From contig JAJZTQ010000011.1 of NCBI GenBank assembly GCA_021848825.1, positions 1 through 64,000 on the forward strand: a DNA stretch of 64,000 nt. The letters are read 5' to 3'. The notes beneath the pieces are model-generated. The model ran no database searches and was not told where the DNA came from. It saw only the letters and a list, made by a program, of their open reading frames with translations. This document shows, piece by piece, positions 2,904 through 27,658 of this stretch. Positions within the stretch are counted from its first letter, which is position 1. Each line of letters opens with the position of its first letter. The DNA is from Pseudomonadota bacterium (GTDB taxonomy: Bacteria; Pseudomonadota; Gammaproteobacteria; Burkholderiales; JABEVD01). Position numbers and translations under genes: made by a program.

Positions 2904-4070
2904 ATGGGAGGTGCTGTGGCAGATATCCATCACGCAATTTTCTATCCGGTCGGTAACGGAGACACGACCCAAATCGTCCTAGCGAAAGGACGTCGCGTTC
3001 TGTTCGACTTCTGCAACCGCGACAAATCTGAAGACGCCCACACGCCGGAAATCGACCTCAAGGCTCGGCTGAAGGAAGACCTGAAGGCCGCCAACCGCGA
3101 CTACTTCGATGTCGTCGCATTCACGCACGCCGACCTCGATCACATCCAAGGCAGCACCGAGTTCTTCGAGTTGCAGCACGCGAAGAAGTACCAAGGCGAC
3201 GGGCGGATCAAGATTCGAGAGTTGTGGGTGCCGGCGGCGATGCTGCTTGAAGAAGCGGACAACGATCATCAGACCGAGGAATACGTTCTGCTTCGCCAAG
3301 AGGCGCGGCACCGTCTGCTGGAGGGCAAGGACATCCTCGTCTTCTCGAAGCCGCAGGCATTGGTCGATTGGCTGGAGCCGCTGCTGAAAGCCCGCGGCGA
3401 ATCGGCATCCGCGCGCGATCACCTCTTTATCGACGCCGGCACGATCGTGCCCGGCTTCACGCAGGCGAAAGATGGCGTCGAGTTCTTCTGCCACTCTCCT
3501 TTCATCAAGCACTGCGACGGCGGCGACATCATCCGCAACAGCGCCGCCTTGGTGTTCAACGTGCGGTTCAATGCCGACGGCGCCACCTACGACTATCTAG
3601 AGATCGGCGACGCGGAATACGGTGATCTGGAAGACATCGTTAGCACGACGCGCTACCACAAGAACGAGGATCGCCTGGCGTGGGACCTGTTCAACATCCC
3701 GCATCATTGCAGCTATCGCGCATTAAACGAGGACAAGGGCAAGGACGAAACGGTCCCCGCGCCGCTGGTGAAGGACCTGCTGCTGATGGGAAAATCCGAT
3801 GCCTACATCGTCAGTTGCAGCAAGCCGATCCCGGATGTCAAGGATTCGTATGAGCAGGTCCAACCCCCGCACATCCAAGCCCGCAAGGCGTATGAGCGCT
3901 ACTTGAAGGAAGTCGGCGGGCGCAAGTTCCTGGTCACGATGGAGGAGCCGAACGCCAACAAGCCCGAGCCGATCGTCTTCGAGATCGGCAGCGCCGGCGT
4001 GACCTGGAAGCGTTCGGCAACCATCGGCGCGCCGGCCATTTTGGCATCGAGGCCCCCGCGAGCTGGCTGA
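2904..4070 (+). CDS. MBL-fold (ComEC-like) hydrolase, divergent HxDxDH motif
   Basis: DVVAFTHADLDHIQG, EIGDAEYGDLED, FNIPHHCSY motifs typical of MBL-fold proteins; GTG at 2916 with upstream GGGAGG is an alternative start. Confidence 0.75.
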   Translation: MGGAVADIHHAIFYPVGNGDTTQIVLAKGRRVLFDFCNRDKSEDAHTPEIDLKARLKEDLKAANRDYFDVVAFTHADLDHIQGSTEFFELQHAKKYQGDGRIKIRELWVPAAMLLEEADNDHQTEEYVLLRQEARHRLLEGKDILVFSKPQALVDWLEPLLKARGESASARDHLFIDAGTIVPGFTQAKDGVEFFCHSPFIKHCDGGDIIRNSAALVFNVRFNADGATYDYLEIGDAEYGDLEDIVSTTRYHKNEDRLAWDLFNIPHHCSYRALNEDKGKDETVPAPLVKDLLLMGKSDAYIVSCSKPIPDVKDSYEQVQPPHIQARKAYERYLKEVGGRKFLVTMEEPNANKPEPIVFEIGSAGVTWKRSATIGAPAILASRPPRAG

Positions 4071-6316
4071 TGACCGATGCGTACCACGAACTGGCAAATG
4101 TCACAGAGGTCGGAAGCGCCGACGCACTGACCATTCCGCGTGCGCGCGCGCTGCTCGATGCCGTCCAGCGGCAACGCGACTATTCGTTAATCCAGCTTCT
4201 GCGGCATCCCGCAGACGGCGCGGCGACGCTCGAATGCTTGATCGTCGAAGTTGAGTGCGATGGCATCCCTCCGAAGAATCCAGTCGGCATCTGCTACCGG
4301 GAACGCTTGGCGCTGTGCGTCCCCAACGACCCCAAGCGGCTAATCGAAGTCCTGGCGCTGCGTCAGGATTTTCCGATTCTGATGCACCAGAATCAGGGTG
4401 TACACGGTGCGCCGGCCAGTCTGTGCCTGTACTTCGATCCGCCTGCTGCGGTGCTGCGCACCTGGACACCTGCGGCGTTCCTGCGCCGCATCCAGTGGTG
4501 GCTGGAAATGAGTGCTCGTGACGAGTTGCACCCGGCTGACCAGCCGGTTGAGCACCTGTTCTTCGCCAGCAAGTACGAACTGGTCCTGCCGTGGAATCTG
4601 GCCGAATTGCGCAAGAACCCGGCGTTACGCTTCATGGTGCTGCGGCAGGAAGAACGCCCCGATCAAGGGTTCACTTGCTTTCTGCAACCGATCTCGAAAG
4701 GTGCGCCGCAGGCAAAGACCTTTGCCCATATCGAGTTGACGCTGCCGCCCATCGTGCATGGCTTCGTTGAGCGTGATCCCGCTACCCTCGGGCAGTTGGC
4801 AGACCTGCTGACACAGCGCAATGTGGATCTCATCACGCCGCTGCGAGCAAAGCTACAAGACAGCGTTGGCGAATCCGGTGCTGCCGCTTCGGCCGATGAC
4901 AAGGCCACGGTCATCTTGCTTCACATTCCGATCAAACGGAGCGCCGACGCGGAACCCGACGGCATCACGCACCGGGCGTTCCTCGTGCCGATCGGCGCAC
5001 TTGAACTCGGCGTCGCCACCGGCGCACTGCTGATACACCAAGGGCGTTACTTCAAGGACGTGATGAACCAGCAGCCCTCGACGGCGTGGCAAAACCAGCC
5101 CGTCTTGCCGATGGACGTACTGGTGCAGAACGATGCGGCGGCCGCGAGACGCCAGTCGGGCATCTTTGACGAAGGTCCGAAGGCCGTCCTGATCGGAGCC
5201 GGATCGCTCGGCAGCGCATTGCTCAACCTGTGGGGACGCAGCGGTTGGGGGCGCTGGACGGTCATCGACAAGGATCACATCAAACCCCACAACCTCTCAA
5301 GGCACGCCGCCTACATACAACACATCGGCGAGACGAAAGCGACGGTCGTCGCCGGACTGCACGCTGGTGCGACGGAAGGCGCGACCGAAGTAGTGCCTAT
5401 CGTCGCCGATGCCACCGACCTTGCGCTGGAGTCAGTCGCGCACGCGCTCGCCGCCGCGAGTCTTGTGGTCGATGCCTCGACAACTCTCGAATATCCGCGT
5501 GCGGCAAGTGGGGTCGATACGCTGCCGCGCCATTGCTCGGCATTCATCACACCCGACGGCAACGCGGCAGTGCTGCTTGTGGAGGATGCCGAACGCGCGC
5601 ACCGCCTGCGCACGCTCGAAGCCCAGTATTACCGCGCCCTGATTCAAGAGGACTGGGGCAGAACTCACCTCAGCGGTCACGCCAACACGTTCTGGAGCGG
5701 CGCGAGTTGCCGCGACATCTCGGCGGTTCTGCCGTACTCGCGCATCCTGGGCCAAGCGAGCACGCTGGCCGAACAGGTTCAGGCCGCGACGACCAATAAG
5801 GACGCCCTTATACGCACGTGGCAACGAGACCCGGCGAGCGGCGCCATCACAGTGCATGATGTCCCCGTTCTGCCAGAGAGGCGCATCCCGCTCGACGACC
5901 TTGACGTGTTCATCGACGATGGCGTCGAACAACAACTACGGGAGCTGCGCCGCCAGGCTTTCCCAAACGAGACCGGCGGCGTGCTGCTCGGCTACTACGA
6001 CTTCAACATCAAAGCCGTGGTGATCGTCGCCGGACTGCCGGCTCCGCCCGACAGCAAAGCCAGTCGAGATTCCTTCGAGCGCGGTATCACTGGCTTGGCC
6101 GAAGCGGCGAAGGATGCCAGCTTGCGCACGGCCGGCATGGTCAGCTACATCGGCGAATGGCACAGCCACCCACCCGGCCACTCCGCCTCGCCCAGTGGGC
6201 ATGATCTGATGCAACTCATTCAGTTGGCGCTTGGGATGTCCGACGACGGCCTGCCGGCCGTCCAGCTCATCGTCGGCGAGCACGATCTTCAAGTCCTTCA
6301 GGGCGAGGTGAAGTGA
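4070..6316 (+). CDS. E2-E1(ThiF)-JAB/JAMM multidomain ubiquitin-like conjugation protein
   Basis: E2-like N-terminal region (HQNQGVHGAPASLCLYFDP...WTPAAFLRRIQWWLE), ThiF Rossmann motif VLIGAGSLGSALLNLWGRSGWGRWTVIDKDHIKPHNLSRH, C-terminal JAB signature NETGGVLLGYYD...GEWHSHPPGHSASPSGHD; TGATG coupling to the upstream gene. Confidence 0.85.
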   Translation: MTDAYHELANVTEVGSADALTIPRARALLDAVQRQRDYSLIQLLRHPADGAATLECLIVEVECDGIPPKNPVGICYRERLALCVPNDPKRLIEVLALRQDFPILMHQNQGVHGAPASLCLYFDPPAAVLRTWTPAAFLRRIQWWLEMSARDELHPADQPVEHLFFASKYELVLPWNLAELRKNPALRFMVLRQEERPDQGFTCFLQPISKGAPQAKTFAHIELTLPPIVHGFVERDPATLGQLADLLTQRNVDLITPLRAKLQDSVGESGAAASADDKATVILLHIPIKRSADAEPDGITHRAFLVPIGALELGVATGALLIHQGRYFKDVMNQQPSTAWQNQPVLPMDVLVQNDAAAARRQSGIFDEGPKAVLIGAGSLGSALLNLWGRSGWGRWTVIDKDHIKPHNLSRHAAYIQHIGETKATVVAGLHAGATEGATEVVPIVADATDLALESVAHALAAASLVVDASTTLEYPRAASGVDTLPRHCSAFITPDGNAAVLLVEDAERAHRLRTLEAQYYRALIQEDWGRTHLSGHANTFWSGASCRDISAVLPYSRILGQASTLAEQVQAATTNKDALIRTWQRDPASGAITVHDVPVLPERRIPLDDLDVFIDDGVEQQLRELRRQAFPNETGGVLLGYYDFNIKAVVIVAGLPAPPDSKASRDSFERGITGLAEAAKDASLRTAGMVSYIGEWHSHPPGHSASPSGHDLMQLIQLALGMSDDGLPAVQLIVGEHDLQVLQGEVK

Positions 6317-6317
6317 C

Positions 6318-7196
6318 GTGTCCGGACAGATGATTCTGAAAATATGGGATGTGCAGCATGGCGCATGTGCCATGCTCACGCACCTCTCGGTCCAGGGAAT
6401 CGAAGGCCGGCTCGCGATGATCGACTCCGGTCACAATCAAGAAACGGGCTGGAAACCGAGCACCTACATCCGGCACTACTTGAAGCGGAGCGTGCTGGAC
6501 TACCTGTTCGTCACCAATGCAGACCTCGATCACATCAGCGATCTGAACAATCTGTGGCGCGAGGGAATCGCGGTCTCCACCTTCATTCGCAACCGCAGCG
6601 TGTCGCCCGAAGTGATGAAAATAATCAAGGAGGTCGGTGGCGAGTTGACCGACGACATCCAGCGATACTTGGACCTTCACGCCAACTACGTCTATCCGGT
6701 CGATACTCCATTCGATCAGAACATGGGCGGCATCACGGTAAAGACATTCTGGAACTCGACGCCACGCTTCTACGACACGAACAATCTAAGCCTGGTTGCA
6801 TTCTTCAAGTTCGGAACCTTCAAGATTCTGTTCCCTGGCGATCTTGAGGAGGACGGCTGGCTCGCGCTGCTGGAGCAACCGGACTTTCGTGCTGAGTTGG
6901 CCGGGACGACCGTGCTCGTGGCCTCTCATCACGGACGCGAAAACGGCTATTGTGAGGCGCTATTCAACTACATCCATCCTCTCGCCATCGTGATGTCCGA
7001 TAAGGCGATCGTCCACGACACGCAACGCATGACGCAGACGTATCGCCAGCGCGTGGTCGATCATTGGCCGAACGGCGTTTCGGTCAAGACGACAGGCAAG
7101 CAGCGGCATGTACTGACGACGCGGCGCGATGGGTGGATTCAATTCGTCGTCGATGAATTTGGTAACTTCGACATCTACACCGAGAACAACGGATGA
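6318..7196 (+). CDS. Second MBL-fold protein, further degenerate NxDxDH motif
   Basis: YLFVTNADLDHISDLNN, ILFPGDLEEDGW, VLVASHHGRENG; GTG start 1 nt after upstream stop. Confidence 0.72.
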   Translation: MSGQMILKIWDVQHGACAMLTHLSVQGIEGRLAMIDSGHNQETGWKPSTYIRHYLKRSVLDYLFVTNADLDHISDLNNLWREGIAVSTFIRNRSVSPEVMKIIKEVGGELTDDIQRYLDLHANYVYPVDTPFDQNMGGITVKTFWNSTPRFYDTNNLSLVAFFKFGTFKILFPGDLEEDGWLALLEQPDFRAELAGTTVLVASHHGRENGYCEALFNYIHPLAIVMSDKAIVHDTQRMTQTYRQRVVDHWPNGVSVKTTGKQRHVLTTRRDGWIQFVVDEFGNFDIYTENNG

Positions 7197-7873
7197 GAGA
7201 CCCCAAAGACTACAGCAGCAAGACGTTGAAGGGTCGCAACCTTGCATGGCTCGTAGCGACGCTCGTTCTCGATGTCCTGATCCTCCTGGTACTCGCCTTT
7301 CATACGGCGATCCAAGACTTGACGCCGACCTCCATCGCGGCCGTCCGAACCAGCCTCTCGGTCCTGCTGCCGATTCCGGTCTTGATCCTGTCGTCACTGA
7401 TCTCGGCCGACCACAAGGCTATCTTGGTTTTCTGGCGCCTCAAGTTCCCGCTTCCCGGATCGCGCGCGTTCTCCGTGTACGCGCCAGCGGATCACCGCAT
7501 CGACTTGGCGAAATTGAAGAAGAACGTTGGAGCGTTTCCCGCAGAGCCGCACGAACAGAACGCCAAGTGGTACGTCCTGTACAAGCAGGTCGATTCGGAC
7601 CCCTCGGTCGCAGACAGCCACAAGAACTATCTGCTATTCCGCGACATCGCGGCAATGTCGCTATTGCTGGTGCCTGTGCTGCCCATTGCCATGTACCTCA
7701 TAGGCATTGATGCGACACGCATTCTGATATCGGCGGCAGTGTTCCTTTGCCAGTATCTGATTACCGCATTCAGCGCACGGACGACAGGCATACGCTTCGT
7801 GCAGAACGTGCTGGCCGTGCACGCCAGCCGGAAAGTGACTGCCTCACGGCCAACAGGGACGGCAAAGGCGTAG
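7193..7873 (+). CDS. Predicted multi-TM protein (about four TM segments), candidate membrane effector
   Basis: ATGA overlap with upstream gene; two pairs of hydrophobic segments (LVATLVLDVLILLVLAF, SLSVLLPIPVLILSSLI; AMSLLLVPVLPIAMYLIGI, ILISAAVFLCQYLITAF). Confidence 0.65.
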   Translation: MRDPKDYSSKTLKGRNLAWLVATLVLDVLILLVLAFHTAIQDLTPTSIAAVRTSLSVLLPIPVLILSSLISADHKAILVFWRLKFPLPGSRAFSVYAPADHRIDLAKLKKNVGAFPAEPHEQNAKWYVLYKQVDSDPSVADSHKNYLLFRDIAAMSLLLVPVLPIAMYLIGIDATRILISAAVFLCQYLITAFSARTTGIRFVQNVLAVHASRKVTASRPTGTAKA

Positions 7874-8125: not shown

Positions 8126-8602
8126 TCAAGCTACCGCCCGACGCTTGCTCTCTGCCTGCATCGCAAAGCCAACCGACAACAGCGCCCTTGTCAGGTGATA
8201 TGCCTCCTGTCGAATCCCGACCAGGCGATTCTCCGTTTCCTCGACTATCTCCTTCTCCCACTCATGTGCGTACTTGTGCAGCTTGCTGATCGTATAGCCA
8301 AACGACCTGGCAGGTTTCGTGATCGCCTCCTTCTTGTCGAAGAATTTTCCATCCTTCCCCTTCCCTACCCATGCTACCGCATACCATTCAGACCGTACCG
8401 AATTCCCATCCTTGATGCTTCTCAACCTGAGCCTGTTCCGGTTCTGCACACCTGGCCTCTCCCCTTCCATGCGTAGCACCGCCGCCCAGTATCGTTCTGC
8501 TATACTCTCAACCTCATGGTGCAATTCTTCCATGCGCCTTTCCAGGGCTTCCTTGATTTCGGGATTTGTTGTCACCGCCCACATTCCTCCGTAAAGATTC
8601 AC
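8126..8602 (-). CDS. MobI-like conjugative transfer (relaxosome accessory) protein
   Basis: Sequence pattern RSEWYAVAWVGK...ITKPARSFGYTISKLHKYAHEWEKEIVEETE resembles MobI(A/C)-type proteins of SXT/IncC elements; context with F-type Tra genes. Confidence 0.45.
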   Translation of the reverse strand: MNLYGGMWAVTTNPEIKEALERRMEELHHEVESIAERYWAAVLRMEGERPGVQNRNRLRLRSIKDGNSVRSEWYAVAWVGKGKDGKFFDKKEAITKPARSFGYTISKLHKYAHEWEKEIVEETENRLVGIRQEAYHLTRALLSVGFAMQAESKRRAVA

Positions 8603-9202: not shown

Positions 9203-10180
9203 TCAATGCGCCCCCTCTTTACGGCCCCGGTAATATTGGGCGATATCGCGCTTGAAAAGACCCCACAGCATCGCCATCGCGCCACCGGCGATAAGCGCGT
9301 TTTCGTCCTCTATCGCTGGGCTGATTGCAACCACCGCCTTGTAGTGCTTCACCAAATTCTTCACCATGAGCATGCCAACTTCGTCATCGATACCTTCAAT
9401 CGTGAAATTTGAAGCGCCCGTTACGGCGGAATCCAGCTTCTGCACAACCCTGTTGCGTCCAACCAGGATCGGCTCAAATACGGCCTTGATGTCGGCGAAG
9501 GTCGCGCCATAGAACTCGTACTTCGCCGGCATGTTTACCTTTAGAGCGAGTATTTCACAGCCCATCCGGCGAAATTCATTGTATCCCCCCATCGCCTTGG
9601 TGAGCAAAAACACCGCGTCACGGTCGAAATTACTTTCCCGTGCGATATAGACGCCGATCCGGTTGCTCGACTTGACCTTTATCTTGCCATCGCGTCGCTT
9701 GATGAAGCAAATGTACCCATCCCGCCATCCCTGGTTGGATGATACGGCAGCAAGCGCCCCCGCCGCCCCGCCCTCGTAAAGCCAAACATTATCAAGCACC
9801 TGGCCATTTGTCAGCAGGTATGCAGCCGACGACTGCTGTGACCGGCGCTCACAGTCCAGAAAATACTTGCGAACCGCTCGCCCCTTCTCATTCCTCTCCA
9901 CCATGGCAAGCTCTTTTGCCATGTCGAGAGTGATGCAGTATTCAACGGAACGACGGTCTCCTCCGCGCCCCTCGGTTTGATTCCCCCGTTTGGGGGAGCG
10001 CAGTTCGAAGTCCTTTCCTTCCTCGAATCCGTATGCCTTGATCCGATTCTTGATCCAGTCGGTAAAGTCCTTCCCAACCTCCAGCACGGAATGCAGCTCA
10101 CGCGCATCCACCACCAGCATTGACACACCCGCGATCTTTCCTTCCATCACTGGAACGAGTTGTTTATCAGCTTCGCTCAT
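9203..10180 (-). CDS. AntA-domain antirepressor-like protein with extra C-terminal region
   Basis: VVDARELHSVLEVGKDFTDWIKNRIKAYGFEEGKDF...YCITLDMAKELAMVERNEKGRAVRKYFLDCER is the AntA/AntB antirepressor signature; start chosen at MSEADKQ preceded by AAGGAGG. Confidence 0.75.
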   Translation of the reverse strand: MSEADKQLVPVMEGKIAGVSMLVVDARELHSVLEVGKDFTDWIKNRIKAYGFEEGKDFELRSPKRGNQTEGRGGDRRSVEYCITLDMAKELAMVERNEKGRAVRKYFLDCERRSQQSSAAYLLTNGQVLDNVWLYEGGAAGALAAVSSNQGWRDGYICFIKRRDGKIKVKSSNRIGVYIARESNFDRDAVFLLTKAMGGYNEFRRMGCEILALKVNMPAKYEFYGATFADIKAVFEPILVGRNRVVQKLDSAVTGASNFTIEGIDDEVGMLMVKNLVKHYKAVVAISPAIEDENALIAGGAMAMLWGLFKRDIAQYYRGRKEGAH

Positions 10181-10225
10181 GTTGAATCCTCCTTGTTTGT
10201 TCAAGATTGCAAGCGACAAATTGGC

Positions 10226-10284
10226 AAAAAAATGGGCACCAATTCCCTTGCGGGAAATGATGCCCCCCTCGTATGGGTTGAAAT
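10226..10284 (-). promoter_or_regulatory. Structured leader-like element, copy 3 (upstream of AntA gene)
   Basis: Minus strand CCCATACGAGGGGGGCATCATTTCCCGCAAGGGAATTGGTGCCCATTTTTTT; GGGCATC/GGTGCCC pairing followed by a U-tract. Confidence 0.6.
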
Positions 10285-10298
10285 TACTTCACTTTCAC

Positions 10299-11591
10299 TT
10301 ACTCGTCATCGAAGCCATCCCATTTCGCCAGATCGATTTCCTCGATGTCACCGAACGGTTGATAGCCAGGATACTCGCCATGCTCGCGGCACCATTGAAG
10401 AAGCTCCAATGCTGCGCGATACTTCTTTCGGCCCGTCTCGATCATTGCTGCGCTTGCCTTGTACACCGCGGCCTCGTGAGGTCCGTTTTTCTCGCTGGGC
10501 AGGAAGTAGAAAGGCAGAGTCAAACCCGTCAGTTCCTTTACAGCATCAGTGTAGAAAGCTGCTTGCAGATCGTAGCTGTACTTCCCGATTGATCTGGCAA
10601 ACCCGGTAATACTGGCATCCAGTGTGGATTTGACATCCAGAATGCCGGTCAAGGTTTTACCATCGTCCATCAGAAAATCCAGCCTGCACTTGCAACGAAT
10701 CCCAGTTACCGGATCGTCCCAGTATGCAGTCAGTTCCGGCTTTCCCTTTTGAAGCAACTTTCGCGCTCCTTTATGGGATAGGGCTTTTTGCCGCATTTTG
10801 ATGATGGCCTGCATATGCTCGTCCGTGAGGATGATCTTTTCGCCGTAAACCGCCTCGAAAACATCATCCCTGAAGCGAAACTCGGAATTTGCATCAGCAG
10901 CCTTGATCGCCGCCTTCAGCTCGTCCTTTGTCAGCGCCTCGACACGAATGCCCAAGGTAATTGCCGCTGCCTTGTAATCGTCAAGCGATTGCAGGGCTCC
11001 TGCAAGTTTCTCCTGGGTCATTGCGGCAAGTTCAGCCTGCACATCTTCTTTGAAGCGAAACTCGGAATTTGCATCAGCAGCTTTGATCGCCGCCTTCAGC
11101 TCGTCCTTTTTGAGTTTGGCATCAACCCCCAAGCGTGCCGCCGCTGCCTTGTAGTCATCCATCGACTGCAAGGTATTTTCGAAGGCACCAAGGGAATACC
11201 GCGCCATTTCAGCCTGAACATCGTCCTTGAAGCGAAACTCGGAATTTGCATCAGCGGCCTTGATCGCCGCCTTCAGCTCGTCCTTGCCAGGCACGCCGTA
11301 AGCGACACCCAACTTGTCCGCCGCTGCCTTGTAATCGTCAAACGATTGCAGGGTTCCAGCGAACACTTCTTCCTTGACGACATCATAGGTGGTCTCGAAC
11401 AGCCACGGCTCAAGGATAGCGGCATGAACCGCTGTCCCGAACTGCATAGCCTGTGTGGGTTCGATCTTCTCGTTGATGTATTCCGCGAAATGAGCAGGCG
11501 ACCGGAGCATACGCACCAAGGCTGAATGCCCTACCGCCGTCTTGTCCGCGTGATATTCGTCGGCTGAAATATTGATGAATTTGTCATGCAT
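10299..11591 (-). CDS. RecE/exonuclease VIII-like PD-(D/E)XK nuclease with three internal ~60-aa repeats
   Basis: ISADEYHADKTAVGHSALVRMLRSPAHFAEY...MQFGTAVHAAILEP...CRLDFLMDDGKTLTGILDVKST...YDLQAAFYTDAV; start trimmed to MHDKF at 11591. Confidence 0.75.
   Translation of the reverse strand: MHDKFINISADEYHADKTAVGHSALVRMLRSPAHFAEYINEKIEPTQAMQFGTAVHAAILEPWLFETTYDVVKEEVFAGTLQSFDDYKAAADKLGVAYGVPGKDELKAAIKAADANSEFRFKDDVQAEMARYSLGAFENTLQSMDDYKAAAARLGVDAKLKKDELKAAIKAADANSEFRFKEDVQAELAAMTQEKLAGALQSLDDYKAAAITLGIRVEALTKDELKAAIKAADANSEFRFRDDVFEAVYGEKIILTDEHMQAIIKMRQKALSHKGARKLLQKGKPELTAYWDDPVTGIRCKCRLDFLMDDGKTLTGILDVKSTLDASITGFARSIGKYSYDLQAAFYTDAVKELTGLTLPFYFLPSEKNGPHEAAVYKASAAMIETGRKKYRAALELLQWCREHGEYPGYQPFGDIEEIDLAKWDGFDDE
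10871..11400 (-). repeat. Three in-frame repeats of 177-180 bp inside the RecE-like gene
   Basis: tgaagcgaaactcggaatttgcatcagc recurs at 10871, 11051 and 11228; protein repeat LQSxDDYKAAAxxLG...KDELKAAIKAADANSEFRFxDDV. Confidence 0.88.
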
Positions 11592-11616
11592 GATGTATCT
11601 CCTTTTCGATGAAACG

Positions 11617-11670
11617 TAAAAAAAAGGGACACCATGCCCCTTGCGGGAAGTGATGTCCCGCAAGGGTTGA
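11617..11670 (-). promoter_or_regulatory. Structured leader-like element, copy 1 (upstream of RecE-like gene)
   Basis: Minus strand CCCTTGCGGGACATCACTTCCCGCAAGGGGCATGGTGTCCCTTTTTTTT; two mutually exclusive pairings. Confidence 0.65.
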
Positions 11671-11745
11671 ACTACGAAATACTGGGATCGATTGAAGATC
11701 AACCGATCTGGATGATGCCGGTTTCCCGGCGATGGTTAAACGCAA

Positions 11746-11877
11746 TCAGGCGTGATTTACGTCATCCTGATGTTTCTTGCCATGACGATCTTCAGCACGA
11801 TGATGCTTTGCGTAGATCGAGATCAACAGCAAAATGAAGGTTGCCAGACCAAAGGCTACCAGCGAATCAGTTGCCAT
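11746..11877 (-). CDS. Tiny single-TM protein (43 aa) with HRAED...KKHQD tail
   Basis: MATDSLVAFGLATFILLLISIYAKHHRAEDRHGKKHQDDVNHA, paralogous to the 1428-1550 ORF; SD GGAAGG. Confidence 0.62.
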   Translation of the reverse strand: MATDSLVAFGLATFILLLISIYAKHHRAEDRHGKKHQDDVNHA

Positions 11878-11941
11878 TGCCGCTACCTTCCTTTCGCAGA
11901 TAGATACCAGTAACAATACACAATATGAGCATAATGAGCAT
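11867..11941 (-). CDS. Tiny hydrophobic peptide (24 aa)
   Basis: MLIMLILCIVTGIYLRKEGSGNGN with strong SD (AAAAAGGAGGCACCTTGTTATG). Confidence 0.4.
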   Translation of the reverse strand: MLIMLILCIVTGIYLRKEGSGNGN

Positions 11942-11968
11942 AACAAGGTGCCTCCTTTTTGAAACAAG

Positions 11969-12020
11969 AAAAAGGGACACCATGGCCCTTGCGGGAAATA
12001 GCGTCCCGCTTGGGTGAATA
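11969..12020 (-). promoter_or_regulatory. Structured leader-like element, copy 2 (upstream of tiny membrane ORFs)
   Basis: Minus strand CCCAAGCGGGACGCTATTTCCCGCAAGGGCCATGGTGTCCCTTTTTC. Confidence 0.62.
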
Positions 12021-15190: not shown

Positions 15191-18100
15191 CTAATTGCTT
15201 GGCGGCGGCAGGTCTCCATCATCTTTCGCTTCCACATCCCCATGCACTTGCTGTTCGCTTGGCGGCACGTATGCCTGGCCGCTTCCAAGCAAGTTTCCGA
15301 GATTTGATTTCCCAAGCGAGCTTGCCAGCTCGTCACTGACACCACTCTGTGAGCCCTCCATGTGCGATCCTGCCGGGACGGGTTGCGCTGGCATGGCAGC
15401 CTGCACTGGCGCTTCTGGCTCTGGTTGCTTCACGGCTTCCGGCGATCCTGCCGGGACGGGCTGCGAGGGCATGGCCGCCTGCACTGGCGCTTCGGGCTCG
15501 GGTTGCTTCACGGCTTCCGGCGATCCTGCCGGGGCGGGCTGCGAGGGCATGGCAGCCTGCACTGGCGCTTCGGGCTCGGGTTGCTTCACGGCTTCCGGCG
15601 ATCCTGCCGGGGCGGGCTGCGAGGGCATGGCAGCCTGCACTGGCGCTTCTGGCTCGGCGGTTTTGCCTGAGCCATCCAAAGTGTCAGTAATCAGTTTGTC
15701 GGCTTCCGAAGTCCCGACACCCACCAAGACTTGCTTGCTAAAATCCGTTTTGGCAACATTATCTGCCGTCACTTCAGCGGCTTTCTCTGCTGTGGGTTCG
15801 GCTTCTTTCACAGCAAAACGCCCTACAGCTCCAACCTCAGCCATACCGTCGCCTACAGCGAGCAAATCGATGCCTGTTTCTATCAATGCCTGCGTGTCGC
15901 TTCCCTTAAACCGTTCTGCCGCCTTCTGTTCGAAATAAGCACCACTCTCTATACCCAATTTATTTTCGGCTTCTTCGGCTAAATGATTGGTTGCATCCGG
16001 TATAACGGATGAAGCTGCATTGTGGAATGTTCTCATCACTGTGCCCGGATTATTCAGTTCTCCCAAAACGGTTCCAGAGACAGTATCCGCTGGCATACCG
16101 CCAGGCATAACCGGGTCTGTCGATGGTTTGGTGCTCGTCGTTGGCTTTGTGGCACTTGAAGTCTGATTCAGCATCCCGCCCACAGAACCAGCTATCGGAT
16201 TGGCCACATGCTGGCCAGGCGTAACCCCTGCGTCTGTTTGATCGGCCTGCACAGCGCCCTGATTACCGGCATTTGCTCCGAAAACAGCCGCTTTCCCATT
16301 TGCTGCCAGGGAATTCTTGTCGAAATCGGCCTTGATCCCCTTTTCTGTCTGCATTTGGCCGTTCACAAGCGCCTGTACATCTGCATCCATCAACTTCTCG
16401 GAAAACGCTCTCACAGTGTTCTGCATGTCCGGGTCGCCCTGGCGCATCAGCTTATCTATGTCCTGGGCGGCCATGTTGTGATAGGTATGCCCGCCGAAGG
16501 TCAGACCACCCGGTTCGCGGCTTGCCGCAATGATGCTGTTTACCACTTGCGTTGTCCGGTCATTGGTCAGGCTATTCTGGTCAGACCTGACCAATTCCGC
16601 CTTGTTCGCCAGTTCTTCCGACCGGCGCAGCTCGTTCGAGGCCGAGTTCTGGTATGTTTGAGCCTTCGCAAATCCGGCGCTGATGTCATGCGCCCCGCGA
16701 GCACCGCTGCTGTTCTTGTCGCTAAACTGGAGACCCCTGATTGCGTTGAGCGCATTGCTGGTCTGTTGAGTCAGGCTATGCTGGGTTGCATAATCGCTCG
16801 CTTCCTGCGCCACATGATCGGCTTCAGTCTTACTCATGCCTTGTGCCCTCAGTTCCGCGCTGATTATTGGCGTGGCCAACCCAGCCGATGCCATTGCGGT
16901 AACGGTCGTCGCCTGAGATTGGGTGAGCCCGTTGGCAGTCGTTAGTTTATGGGTCATCGTTTGCATCGCCTGGTTAGCGTTGCTGATGGTTCCCATCCTT
17001 TGCAGGTTGTCTCCACTGATCAGATCGGAGTCATGGCCATGCTGCTGAATGAAGCTGCTGATGTCGTTCCAATTCGATGCCCACTGGGTTCCGGCCTGCT
17101 GCCCGGATGAAACGGCACTGGAAAATGCCGTCTTCGATTCCGTTGCCAGTTTCGCTGCATAGGCGGAACCACTTTCCGCCTTGAAGTTCATGCTGTCGCT
17201 GGCAACGCCCTTGTCATAGGTGCGTGTCCCATTAGCAGCGATGTTTGTGATCGATCCATTGTCGTTGACATGCTGTTGAAGCCCTGCGCCAGCCGTGACA
17301 TGAGGGGCGGCATTCACCTGCCCGTTCTGGAAGTTTCCCTCGGCCATCTGGGTGGCCAGCTTCTCGACGGAATGGGGCGGGCTGGCCAGGCTGCCAATGG
17401 CCTGAAGCCCTATCTCCCCACCTTTCACGATTCCCCAGGCAATGGGCGGAATCGCCACCACCAGCATGCCCGCAATGGCCTGGTCGGACACGCTGCTCGA
17501 CGTAATCCACTGCTGATACTGCAACGCCATCGCGTTGCCCTGCGTGGCATTTCCCCAATATGCCGCATGGACGTTCATCATATAGTTGACCACGGCATAG
17601 AGCGGCGGCCAGAGCTGAATCCACACCAGGCTCTTCACGTATCCTGCGAGGACGGCAAGCGCCTTGTGCCCGGCAACCACGATGAAGATGAGGATGATCG
17701 GGAAAATCGCATACTGGATCAGCTCAATGGCATTCCTGACTTTCGGCATGGAGCTTTGGGCAATGTTCGCCATGGCGATATAGCTGGAATTGGTTTGCCG
17801 GAAGCCTTCCGATTGGGTCAGGCATTCAGTGGCCAGCGCTGTATTCGAGGTTTGCGCAAGCATGTTGCAGTGCGCGTCGATGATGGCATTTGACACCATC
17901 CCCTGCTGCACGGCGGCATTGGCTGATGTTGCAATACCATAGAAATAGCTTGCCGAATCGACGATGGTGTTGCTCATGGAATTCACTGCAAGAGCTTGCG
18001 AGGTCGTCTGAGATAATTCCGATACCGCAAGCTGCTGAAGCGTGGCGGGCACTTCAGATGTCGTCAGCCTTGTGTTCAGATCGTTGTACGCTGCCGGGCA

Positions 18101-26524: not shown

Positions 26525-27658
26525 ATGTTCTTTGGCAGCAGTAAGAAAATCGATGAGTTGTCCGGTCGGGTCCGGGAGCTCGAAAACCAGATCGAATCGC
26601 GAGACAGGAAGATAGATGATCTGACAAGCCAGCTGAAATCGGCGCAGGAAAGGGAACAGGAACTGCGTTCCGAAGTCGAACGACTCAGCGGGCTGATACA
26701 GCAGCTGCAGGCTTTCGGCCAATCCCTGTCCGATGTTCAGGCAAGCCTGATGACTTTGGCCAACGACATGCGCACGGAAAAGGACCATGCGATCGATGCC
26801 CAGGGCGTATCTTTGACCACTCGCAGCGCAATCGAGAGCATCGCGGCAAACCTTTCGGAGCTTGCCGACGGTTCCCGGAATGCAGCCTCCAAGGTAGGCG
26901 AACTCGACGGACGCGCCCAGGAAATCAGCAGGATTGTGCAGCTGATCAAGGAAATAGCGGACCAGACCAATCTGCTCGCGCTGAATGCGGCCATCGAAGC
27001 GGCCCGTGCAGGCGAACAGGGTCGCGGATTCGCGGTTGTTGCCGACGAGGTCAGAAAGCTTGCAGAGCGCACAGCCAATGCAACCGAGGAAATCTCGGCG
27101 CTGGTGGGAAAAATACGTGACGATAGTTCATCCAGCTACGATCAGATCAAGTTGTTGGCTGAGCATTCCGGTGAATTCAGCCATGACGGACAAAAAGCGG
27201 CTGAAACCATGCGCGAACTCCTCAATCTCTCCGAGGGAATGGAAAAAGCGATTGCGGCATCGGCGCTGAGAGGATTCTGCGAACTGGCGAAAGTGGATCA
27301 CCTGATTTACAAGTTCCGGATCTACAAGGTGCTGTTTGGTCTGTCGGACGAAACGGAAGACAAATTCGCCAGCCACACTTCCTGTCGTCTCGGAAAGTGG
27401 TATTACGAAGGGGAAGGACGCGACTGCTTTTCGCAACTGCCGGGATATCGGGATATCGAGGCGCCCCATATGGAGGTTCATCAGGCAGGTCTGGATGCGC
27501 TTCGCGCCCACTTCGAAAAAAATACGGCCAGGGTGCTCGACGGCATGAAGCTCATGGAAAGCGCCAGCCTTCGCGTGCTTGAAGGACTGGAAAAAATGGC
27601 AAGAAGCGGCGAAGAAAACAGCAGCCTGTTGTGCAGCAGCGCGACGCAGCCTGACTGA
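26525..27658 (+). CDS. Soluble methyl-accepting chemotaxis-type protein with C-terminal CZB-like domain
   Basis: [38 protein letters not shown] signalling hairpin; C-terminal [18 protein letters not shown]...[12 protein letters not shown]...[12 protein letters not shown] zinc-binding pattern; no TM segment. Confidence 0.88.

Follow-up and report, generated by a model that had tools for sequence, protein, structure and literature searches.

The window (the whole analysed stretch of DNA, 64,000 nucleotides) carries a mobI gene and also encodes TraN, TraH and TraG_N. For this reason, the leaders described here are placed in a conjugative element of the MobI / F-type T4SS kind. On the minus strand, an antA gene, a DUF3799/RecE-like gene and tiny ORFs each lie behind a copy of a structured leader and a Shine-Dalgarno sequence (SD) (Table 1). 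The three leader copies, numbered 1 to 3, are located at about 10225-10275, 11618-11668 and 11966-12016. Next to mobI, a block of four plus-strand genes (2904-7870) encodes an MBL-fold protein, an E2/E1(ThiF)-JAB fusion, a second MBL-fold protein, which is the PADLOC candidate PDC-M48B (2e-54), and a probable membrane protein; this block is likely a defence island of the E1-JAB type. Internal repeats were observed in two minus-strand genes of the window: about three near-identical ones (KDELKAAIKAADANSEFRFKDDV) before the nuclease domain of the DUF3799 gene (10840-11360) and tandem repeats PEAPVQAAMPSQPAPAGSPEAVKQ in the C-terminal part of the TraG-like protein (15370-15600). Comparison of the DNA of the region with plasmids and phages gave short antA matches only.

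Table 1. Leader folds and neighbouring genes in the window
Feature	Position	Strand	Basis
mobI	8129..8602	-	Pfam PF19456, 5e-23
antA (AntA/AntB antirepressor domain), behind copy 1	9206..10180	-	Pfam PF08346, 1.3e-26
Copy 1: only B:E (GGGGCAUC..GGUGCCC) and inner hairpin	10234..10265	-	B:E probability 1.0
DUF3799 PD-(D/E)XK, RecE/exonuclease VIII-like gene, behind copy 2	10302..11591	-	Pfam, 4.5e-39
Copy 2 hairpin II, E (GCAUGGUGUCCCUUUUUUUU) with AAAAGGAG..ACAUCAUGC	11588..11637	-	17 bp, -17.8 kcal/mol; family E:RBS covariation
Copy 2 alternative fold B:E, GGGACAUC / GGUGUCCC, inner CCC-GCAA-GGG, then U-tract	11626..11659	-	two-sided GC to AU changes; covariation
Copy 2 hairpin I (A:D and B:C), CCCUUGCGGGA.CAUCACU.UCCCGCAAGGG, 11 bp	11638..11666	-	MFE and centroid; family permutation z -9.2, -7.5
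Tiny hydrophobic ORF(s), behind copy 3	11749..11940	-	ORF list; no Pfam match
Copy 3 hairpin II, GGUGUCCCUUUUU with AAAAAGGAGGCACC	11944..11984	-	15 bp, -18.4 kcal/mol
Copy 3 alternative fold B:E, GGGACGCU / GGUGUCCC, around CCC-GCAA-GGG	11974..12009	-	sequence; two-sided changes
Copy 3 hairpin I, CCC.AA.GCGGGA...UUUCCCGC.AA.GGG	11986..12014	-	predicted fold

Using a 24-nt pattern with up to three mismatches, we found exactly these three copies in the window and no match in 100 shuffles. Pattern and covariance model searches gave no further good copy in the whole 2.74-Mb genome. A sequence-only reading of this DNA had already reported the three minus-strand copies, each followed by an SD and a gene, and both the positions and the Pfam assignments agree with it. 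The pairings it proposed are present as well (GGGACATC/GGTGTCCC in copy 2, GGGACGCT/GGTGTCCC in copy 3 and GGGCATC/GGTGCCC in copy 1). The perfect alternative pairing CCCTTGCGGGA : TCCCGCAAGGG, which it had assigned to copy 1, actually sits in the copy at 11617-11670, that is, in copy 2. It also overlooked that in copies 2 and 3 the 3' arm of the leader, GGTGTCCCTTTTT, is complementary to the downstream AAAAGGAG..CACC/ACATCAT. The MFE relative to shuffled sequences gave z scores of -6.8 for copy 2 and -4.2 for copy 3 (90 nt), and of -2.2 for copy 1 (108 nt).

The leader family consists of five alternating segments: A (CCCC), B (GGGGCACC), C (GCCCCGC), D (GGGGCAT) and E (GGTGCCCC, with TTTT). 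Hairpin I is formed by A:D outside B:C. Hairpin II is formed by the distal E (catGGTGyCyCC, often followed by U's) with the downstream SD/start region and has a median of 13 bp. E is complementary to B as well, and B:E with C:D inside is the "U-tailed hairpin" of the sequence-only reading. The threefold relationship of B, E and the ribosome-binding site (RBS) can be seen in L111:4152 (GGGGATATAT / GATATATCCCC / GGAGATATATCATG), in plasmid pRA1 at L184:17121 (GGGTACACC / AGGTGTACCC / GGAGTACACCTCATG) and in L201:7046 (GGGAACTA / GTAGTTCCTT / AAGGAACTAC). Most copies are predicted to favour a fold in which hairpins I and II exist together: this OFF fold lies below the ON fold in 92 of 110 copies, by a median of -6 kcal/mol, in folding energies that leave aside proteins and co-transcriptional effects. 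In copy 2, the predicted hairpin II buries the SD (11599-11602) and the AUG (11589-11591) of the DUF3799 gene, and in copy 3 the SD (11950-11954) of the tiny membrane ORF. Copies 2 and 3 are intact leaders with a predicted OFF fold. Conservation is almost wholly confined to the complementary segments, and there is no conserved aptamer-like domain. A GNRA tetraloop was considered as a conserved recognition element and ruled out, because the loop positions covary within hairpin I. Stop codons often lie upstream, 0-40 nt before segment A by measured distance. On the minus strand of one genome (G101, L094:14619 and the next 100 bases), two leader-like elements stand in tandem before one gene.

The family is widespread: many Proteobacteria carry it on conjugative plasmids and comparable mobile elements, with 5-21 copies per element. 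A pattern with three mismatches, run over 150 relatives, returned mostly noise and was useful only through one cluster, in G028, a genome from the same order (Sulfuricystis multivorans). One Sulfuricystis multivorans cluster lies on plasmid pSTJ2, in an element with MobI(A/C) and AcaB. A covariance model built from 14 copies (R1) found 21 copies in the Sulfuricystis multivorans genome and, over 400 genomes of the order, further clusters of 6-13 copies in seven genomes, each confined to one or a few neighbouring contig regions. A second model (R2) matched at E <= 0.001 in 21 of the 369 class genomes and in 11 of the 299 phylum genomes, two of these 11 lying outside the class; the E-values from either model are approximate. 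Gallionella, Candidatus Nitrotoga, Sideroxydans and Thiothrix are among the carriers. Chance probably accounts for many pattern matches in genome contigs (actinobacteria, Clostridia, archaea, Caballeronia); at the Caballeronia loci, the covariance model had no strong match. The IMG/VR match L006, apparently inside an unrelated phage coding region, was also taken as chance. The proteins encoded behind the leaders include RecE-like proteins, RecT, SSB, ArdC, RadC, helicases, ParB and many small unknown proteins. The DUF3799 family accounts for 9 of 98 of them, with the window protein counted in, and short membrane ORFs like that behind copy 3 also follow leaders in other elements. No Rfam 15 family matched the window at the gathering score, and at a loose E-value there was no match for the window region, the dense cluster loci or pRA1, in agreement with the sequence-only reading, which did not recognise the element as a named family.

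Copies of the family stand almost always directly before a start codon. A strong SD and an ORF start no more than 60 nt downstream were found for 156 of 197 copies; random places reached 4.9%, and the other strand or the opposite flank 1%. In the covariation test, the complementarity of each segment to its own partner was compared with that to partners permuted within the same genome, and reversed partners served as a control for composition. Permutation within genomes removes between-genome relatedness, the test itself not being a phylogenetic model. Simple rules fixed the segment borders, and start codons were picked by SD score, which could favour RBS regions generally, but equally in own and permuted partners. 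For 127 unique copies in 30 groups, z was -9.2 for hairpin I, -6.2 for B:E and -8.0 for E:RBS, each with 0 of 1000 permutations as extreme; the reversed and wrong-segment controls lay between -2.5 and 0. An independent set of 71 copies from 20 loci, nearly all gammaproteobacterial and found with a model that contained no RBS, gave -7.5, -8.3 and -7.2, respectively. Covariation in wider homologues, which the sequence-only reading had named beforehand as a check, is present in both sets. It turned out that the family has a helix over the SD that is backed by covariation, with which the predicted folds of window copies 2 and 3 agree.

Since all three pairings (hairpin I, B:E and E:RBS) are better with own than with permuted partners in either set, we consider the intact leader to be a cis-acting translational attenuator with a built-in anti-attenuator, at a probability of about 0.8, on the basis of the observed architecture, covariation, position and predicted energies. 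The mechanism is decided by the 3' arm being an anti-RBS, with a predicted default fold that buries the SD and, in many cases, the start codon. After transcription, A:D and B:C would fold first, giving hairpin I. Segment E would emerge next and pair with the SD/start region as hairpin II, so that the gene would be transcribed and poorly translated. Alternatively, the RBS-like segment B could capture E (B:E, with C:D inside), which would free the RBS. Anything that unfolds hairpin I or stabilises B:E would then turn translation on. The sequence-only reading had proposed an attenuator or translational control RNA that forms either a hairpin or a U-tailed hairpin, which is correct in its main lines. 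Covariation supports both of its folds; the anti-RBS arm and the attenuator already reported upstream of bet in SXT/IncA-C elements were missing from it, the U-tract proves dispensable, and copy 1 lacks the RBS-sequestering part.

It is possible, if rather unlikely, that the leader does not switch at all. Hairpin II alone would then set a low level of translation, and B:E would be a relic of the leader's birth by duplication of the RBS region. The preference for the OFF fold by a median of 6 kcal/mol is consistent with this, as is the resemblance of B to its own RBS (z 3.9), which could come partly from an ancestral duplication. However, loop I has no partner in the OFF fold, and inside single genomes it covaries with E from copy to copy (energy z -4.2, pairing-run z 4.7, with null results for the reversed controls). 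This speaks for B:E as a genuine alternative, as opposed to a by-product. Moreover, the covariation of B:E matches that of E:RBS in the independent set, and a relic is not expected to keep it.

A transcription attenuator, in which B:E with the U-tract is an intrinsic terminator, hairpin I an antiterminator and the complementarity to the RBS secondary, appears improbable for the family. Indeed, B:E is GC-rich and covarying, a T run of at least four follows E in 136 of 198 copies, and copy 1 folds as a U-tailed hairpin. But a GC hairpin followed directly by a U-tract is not common to all members. In the 62 of 198 copies that have no run of four T's, the pairing of E with the RBS is as strong as in the others (-17.0 vs -16.0 kcal/mol). 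Termination leaves the covariation of E with the RBS unexplained, and with hairpin I as the antiterminator E would still bury the RBS. The lengths of the T run and the A run correlate overall and not clearly within genomes (p 0.1). Thus, the U-tract is not fully explained by pairing with the RBS, and a terminator role is possible in some copies.

The other two readings are very improbable. A fold acting in single-stranded DNA during transfer (a Frpo-like promoter or priming site) and not in mRNA would suit leaders that adjoin mobI in the window and precede ssb, recT, ardC and radC, genes typical of entry modules, but the leaders are in exact register with the SD and start codon, and hairpin II spans the RBS. 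A leading-region single-stranded promoter was set aside, as the pRA1 module lies at a great distance from mobI, and neither the F leading region nor R388 gave matches. As in FourU elements, where a U-run faces AAGGAG, the U-run of the leader faces AAGGAG, but for an RNA thermometer (FourU/ROSE-like) a hairpin II with a median of 13 bp and about -17 kcal/mol appears more stable than simple melting would allow, and the elaborate second fold would be needless.

Copy 1 is the exception among the window copies with respect to translational attenuation. In place of a helix over the SD it has the B:E fold, directly followed by AUUUUUUU at 10226-10233. Its E showed no complementarity to the antA RBS (only -5.5 kcal/mol), the SD lying about 35 nt further on. 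Copy 1 may now be a terminator or a relic. Most simply, its downstream gene would have been exchanged and the leader left in one of these roles.

In the IncA plasmid pRA1, leaders stand before bet, exo, a DUF3150 gene, an AAA ATPase gene, yfbR and others. The bet leader (L222:26808-26852; bet starts at 26883) scored 31.7 bits (E 3.3e-6) with the covariance model, and its predicted fold has two hairpins. No convincing copy turned up in 1-50 kb of pRA1 or pAR060302, nor did R388 and the F leading region yield one. At L222:24144-24250 of pRA1, a full two-hairpin leader precedes a short unannotated ORF beginning MEIMELAIIVLCIPTGWAISRP. This ORF resembles the tiny membrane ORFs that follow window copy 3 and those of other elements, and possibly encodes an unannotated conserved small protein. 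The bet attenuator of SXT has reportedly been studied experimentally by Garriss et al. in 2013. A review describes a "strong translational attenuator" upstream of bet in SXT, present in IncA/C plasmids too, and bet and exo of SXT and IncA/C elements as strongly transcribed and translation-limited; according to the same review, the IncA/C attenuator has not yet been investigated (PMC4542580). Other available papers on the SetCD and AcaCD regulons do not mention the attenuator. The hairpin of the SXT/IncA-C bet attenuator is likely hairpin II.

We infer that hairpin II represses in the copies described here, that B:E is used in the cell and that the copies have a common trigger, for which the analysis yielded no candidate. 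The same leader stands before many genes of one module, so a common factor would switch the module together. Tentatively, the leaders might form a module-wide translational regulon, in which a factor of the element or the host, or the state of a new cell, shifts all copies from hairpins I and II to B:E at once. If so, recombination, single-stranded DNA-binding and anti-restriction genes transcribed under the element's activator in donors would be translated only when needed, for example on entry or DNA damage. Translation-limited bet and exo would become one case of a module-wide RNA device, for which the switching bases can be predicted. Of 5426 complete E. coli genomes, 106 (about 2%) have the region, almost always on plasmids. 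The leader may also serve as an RNA signature for spotting the module in poorly annotated mobile elements, and it gives a reason to seek a trans-acting regulator.

Among known systems, erm/cat translational attenuators also have alternating complementary segments, a default hairpin that buries the RBS and an alternative pairing that frees it; in its predicted folds the leader shares all three, but it is carried by many different genes. With translational riboswitches it shares the exchange of anti-SD and anti-anti-SD, but it has no conserved aptamer-like domain, and no metabolite is common to the genes behind it. As in intrinsic terminators and transcription attenuators, B:E takes the form of a GC hairpin with a U tail in about two thirds of copies; unlike in intrinsic terminators, E pairs and covaries with the RBS, and this is kept in copies that have no U-tract. 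The closest likeness is to the SXT/R391 and IncA/C bet attenuator, which acts in the same gene module with the type of effect proposed here (high transcription, hindered translation); by the covariance model, the pRA1 bet leader itself belongs to the family. In contrast to the reported attenuator of one gene, the family has many copies per element and a covarying alternative fold, and it occurs in Beta- and Gammaproteobacteria as well as in two genomes from outside that GTDB class. Devices of this class are known; what appears to be new is the extent, the alternative fold and the three-way covariation.
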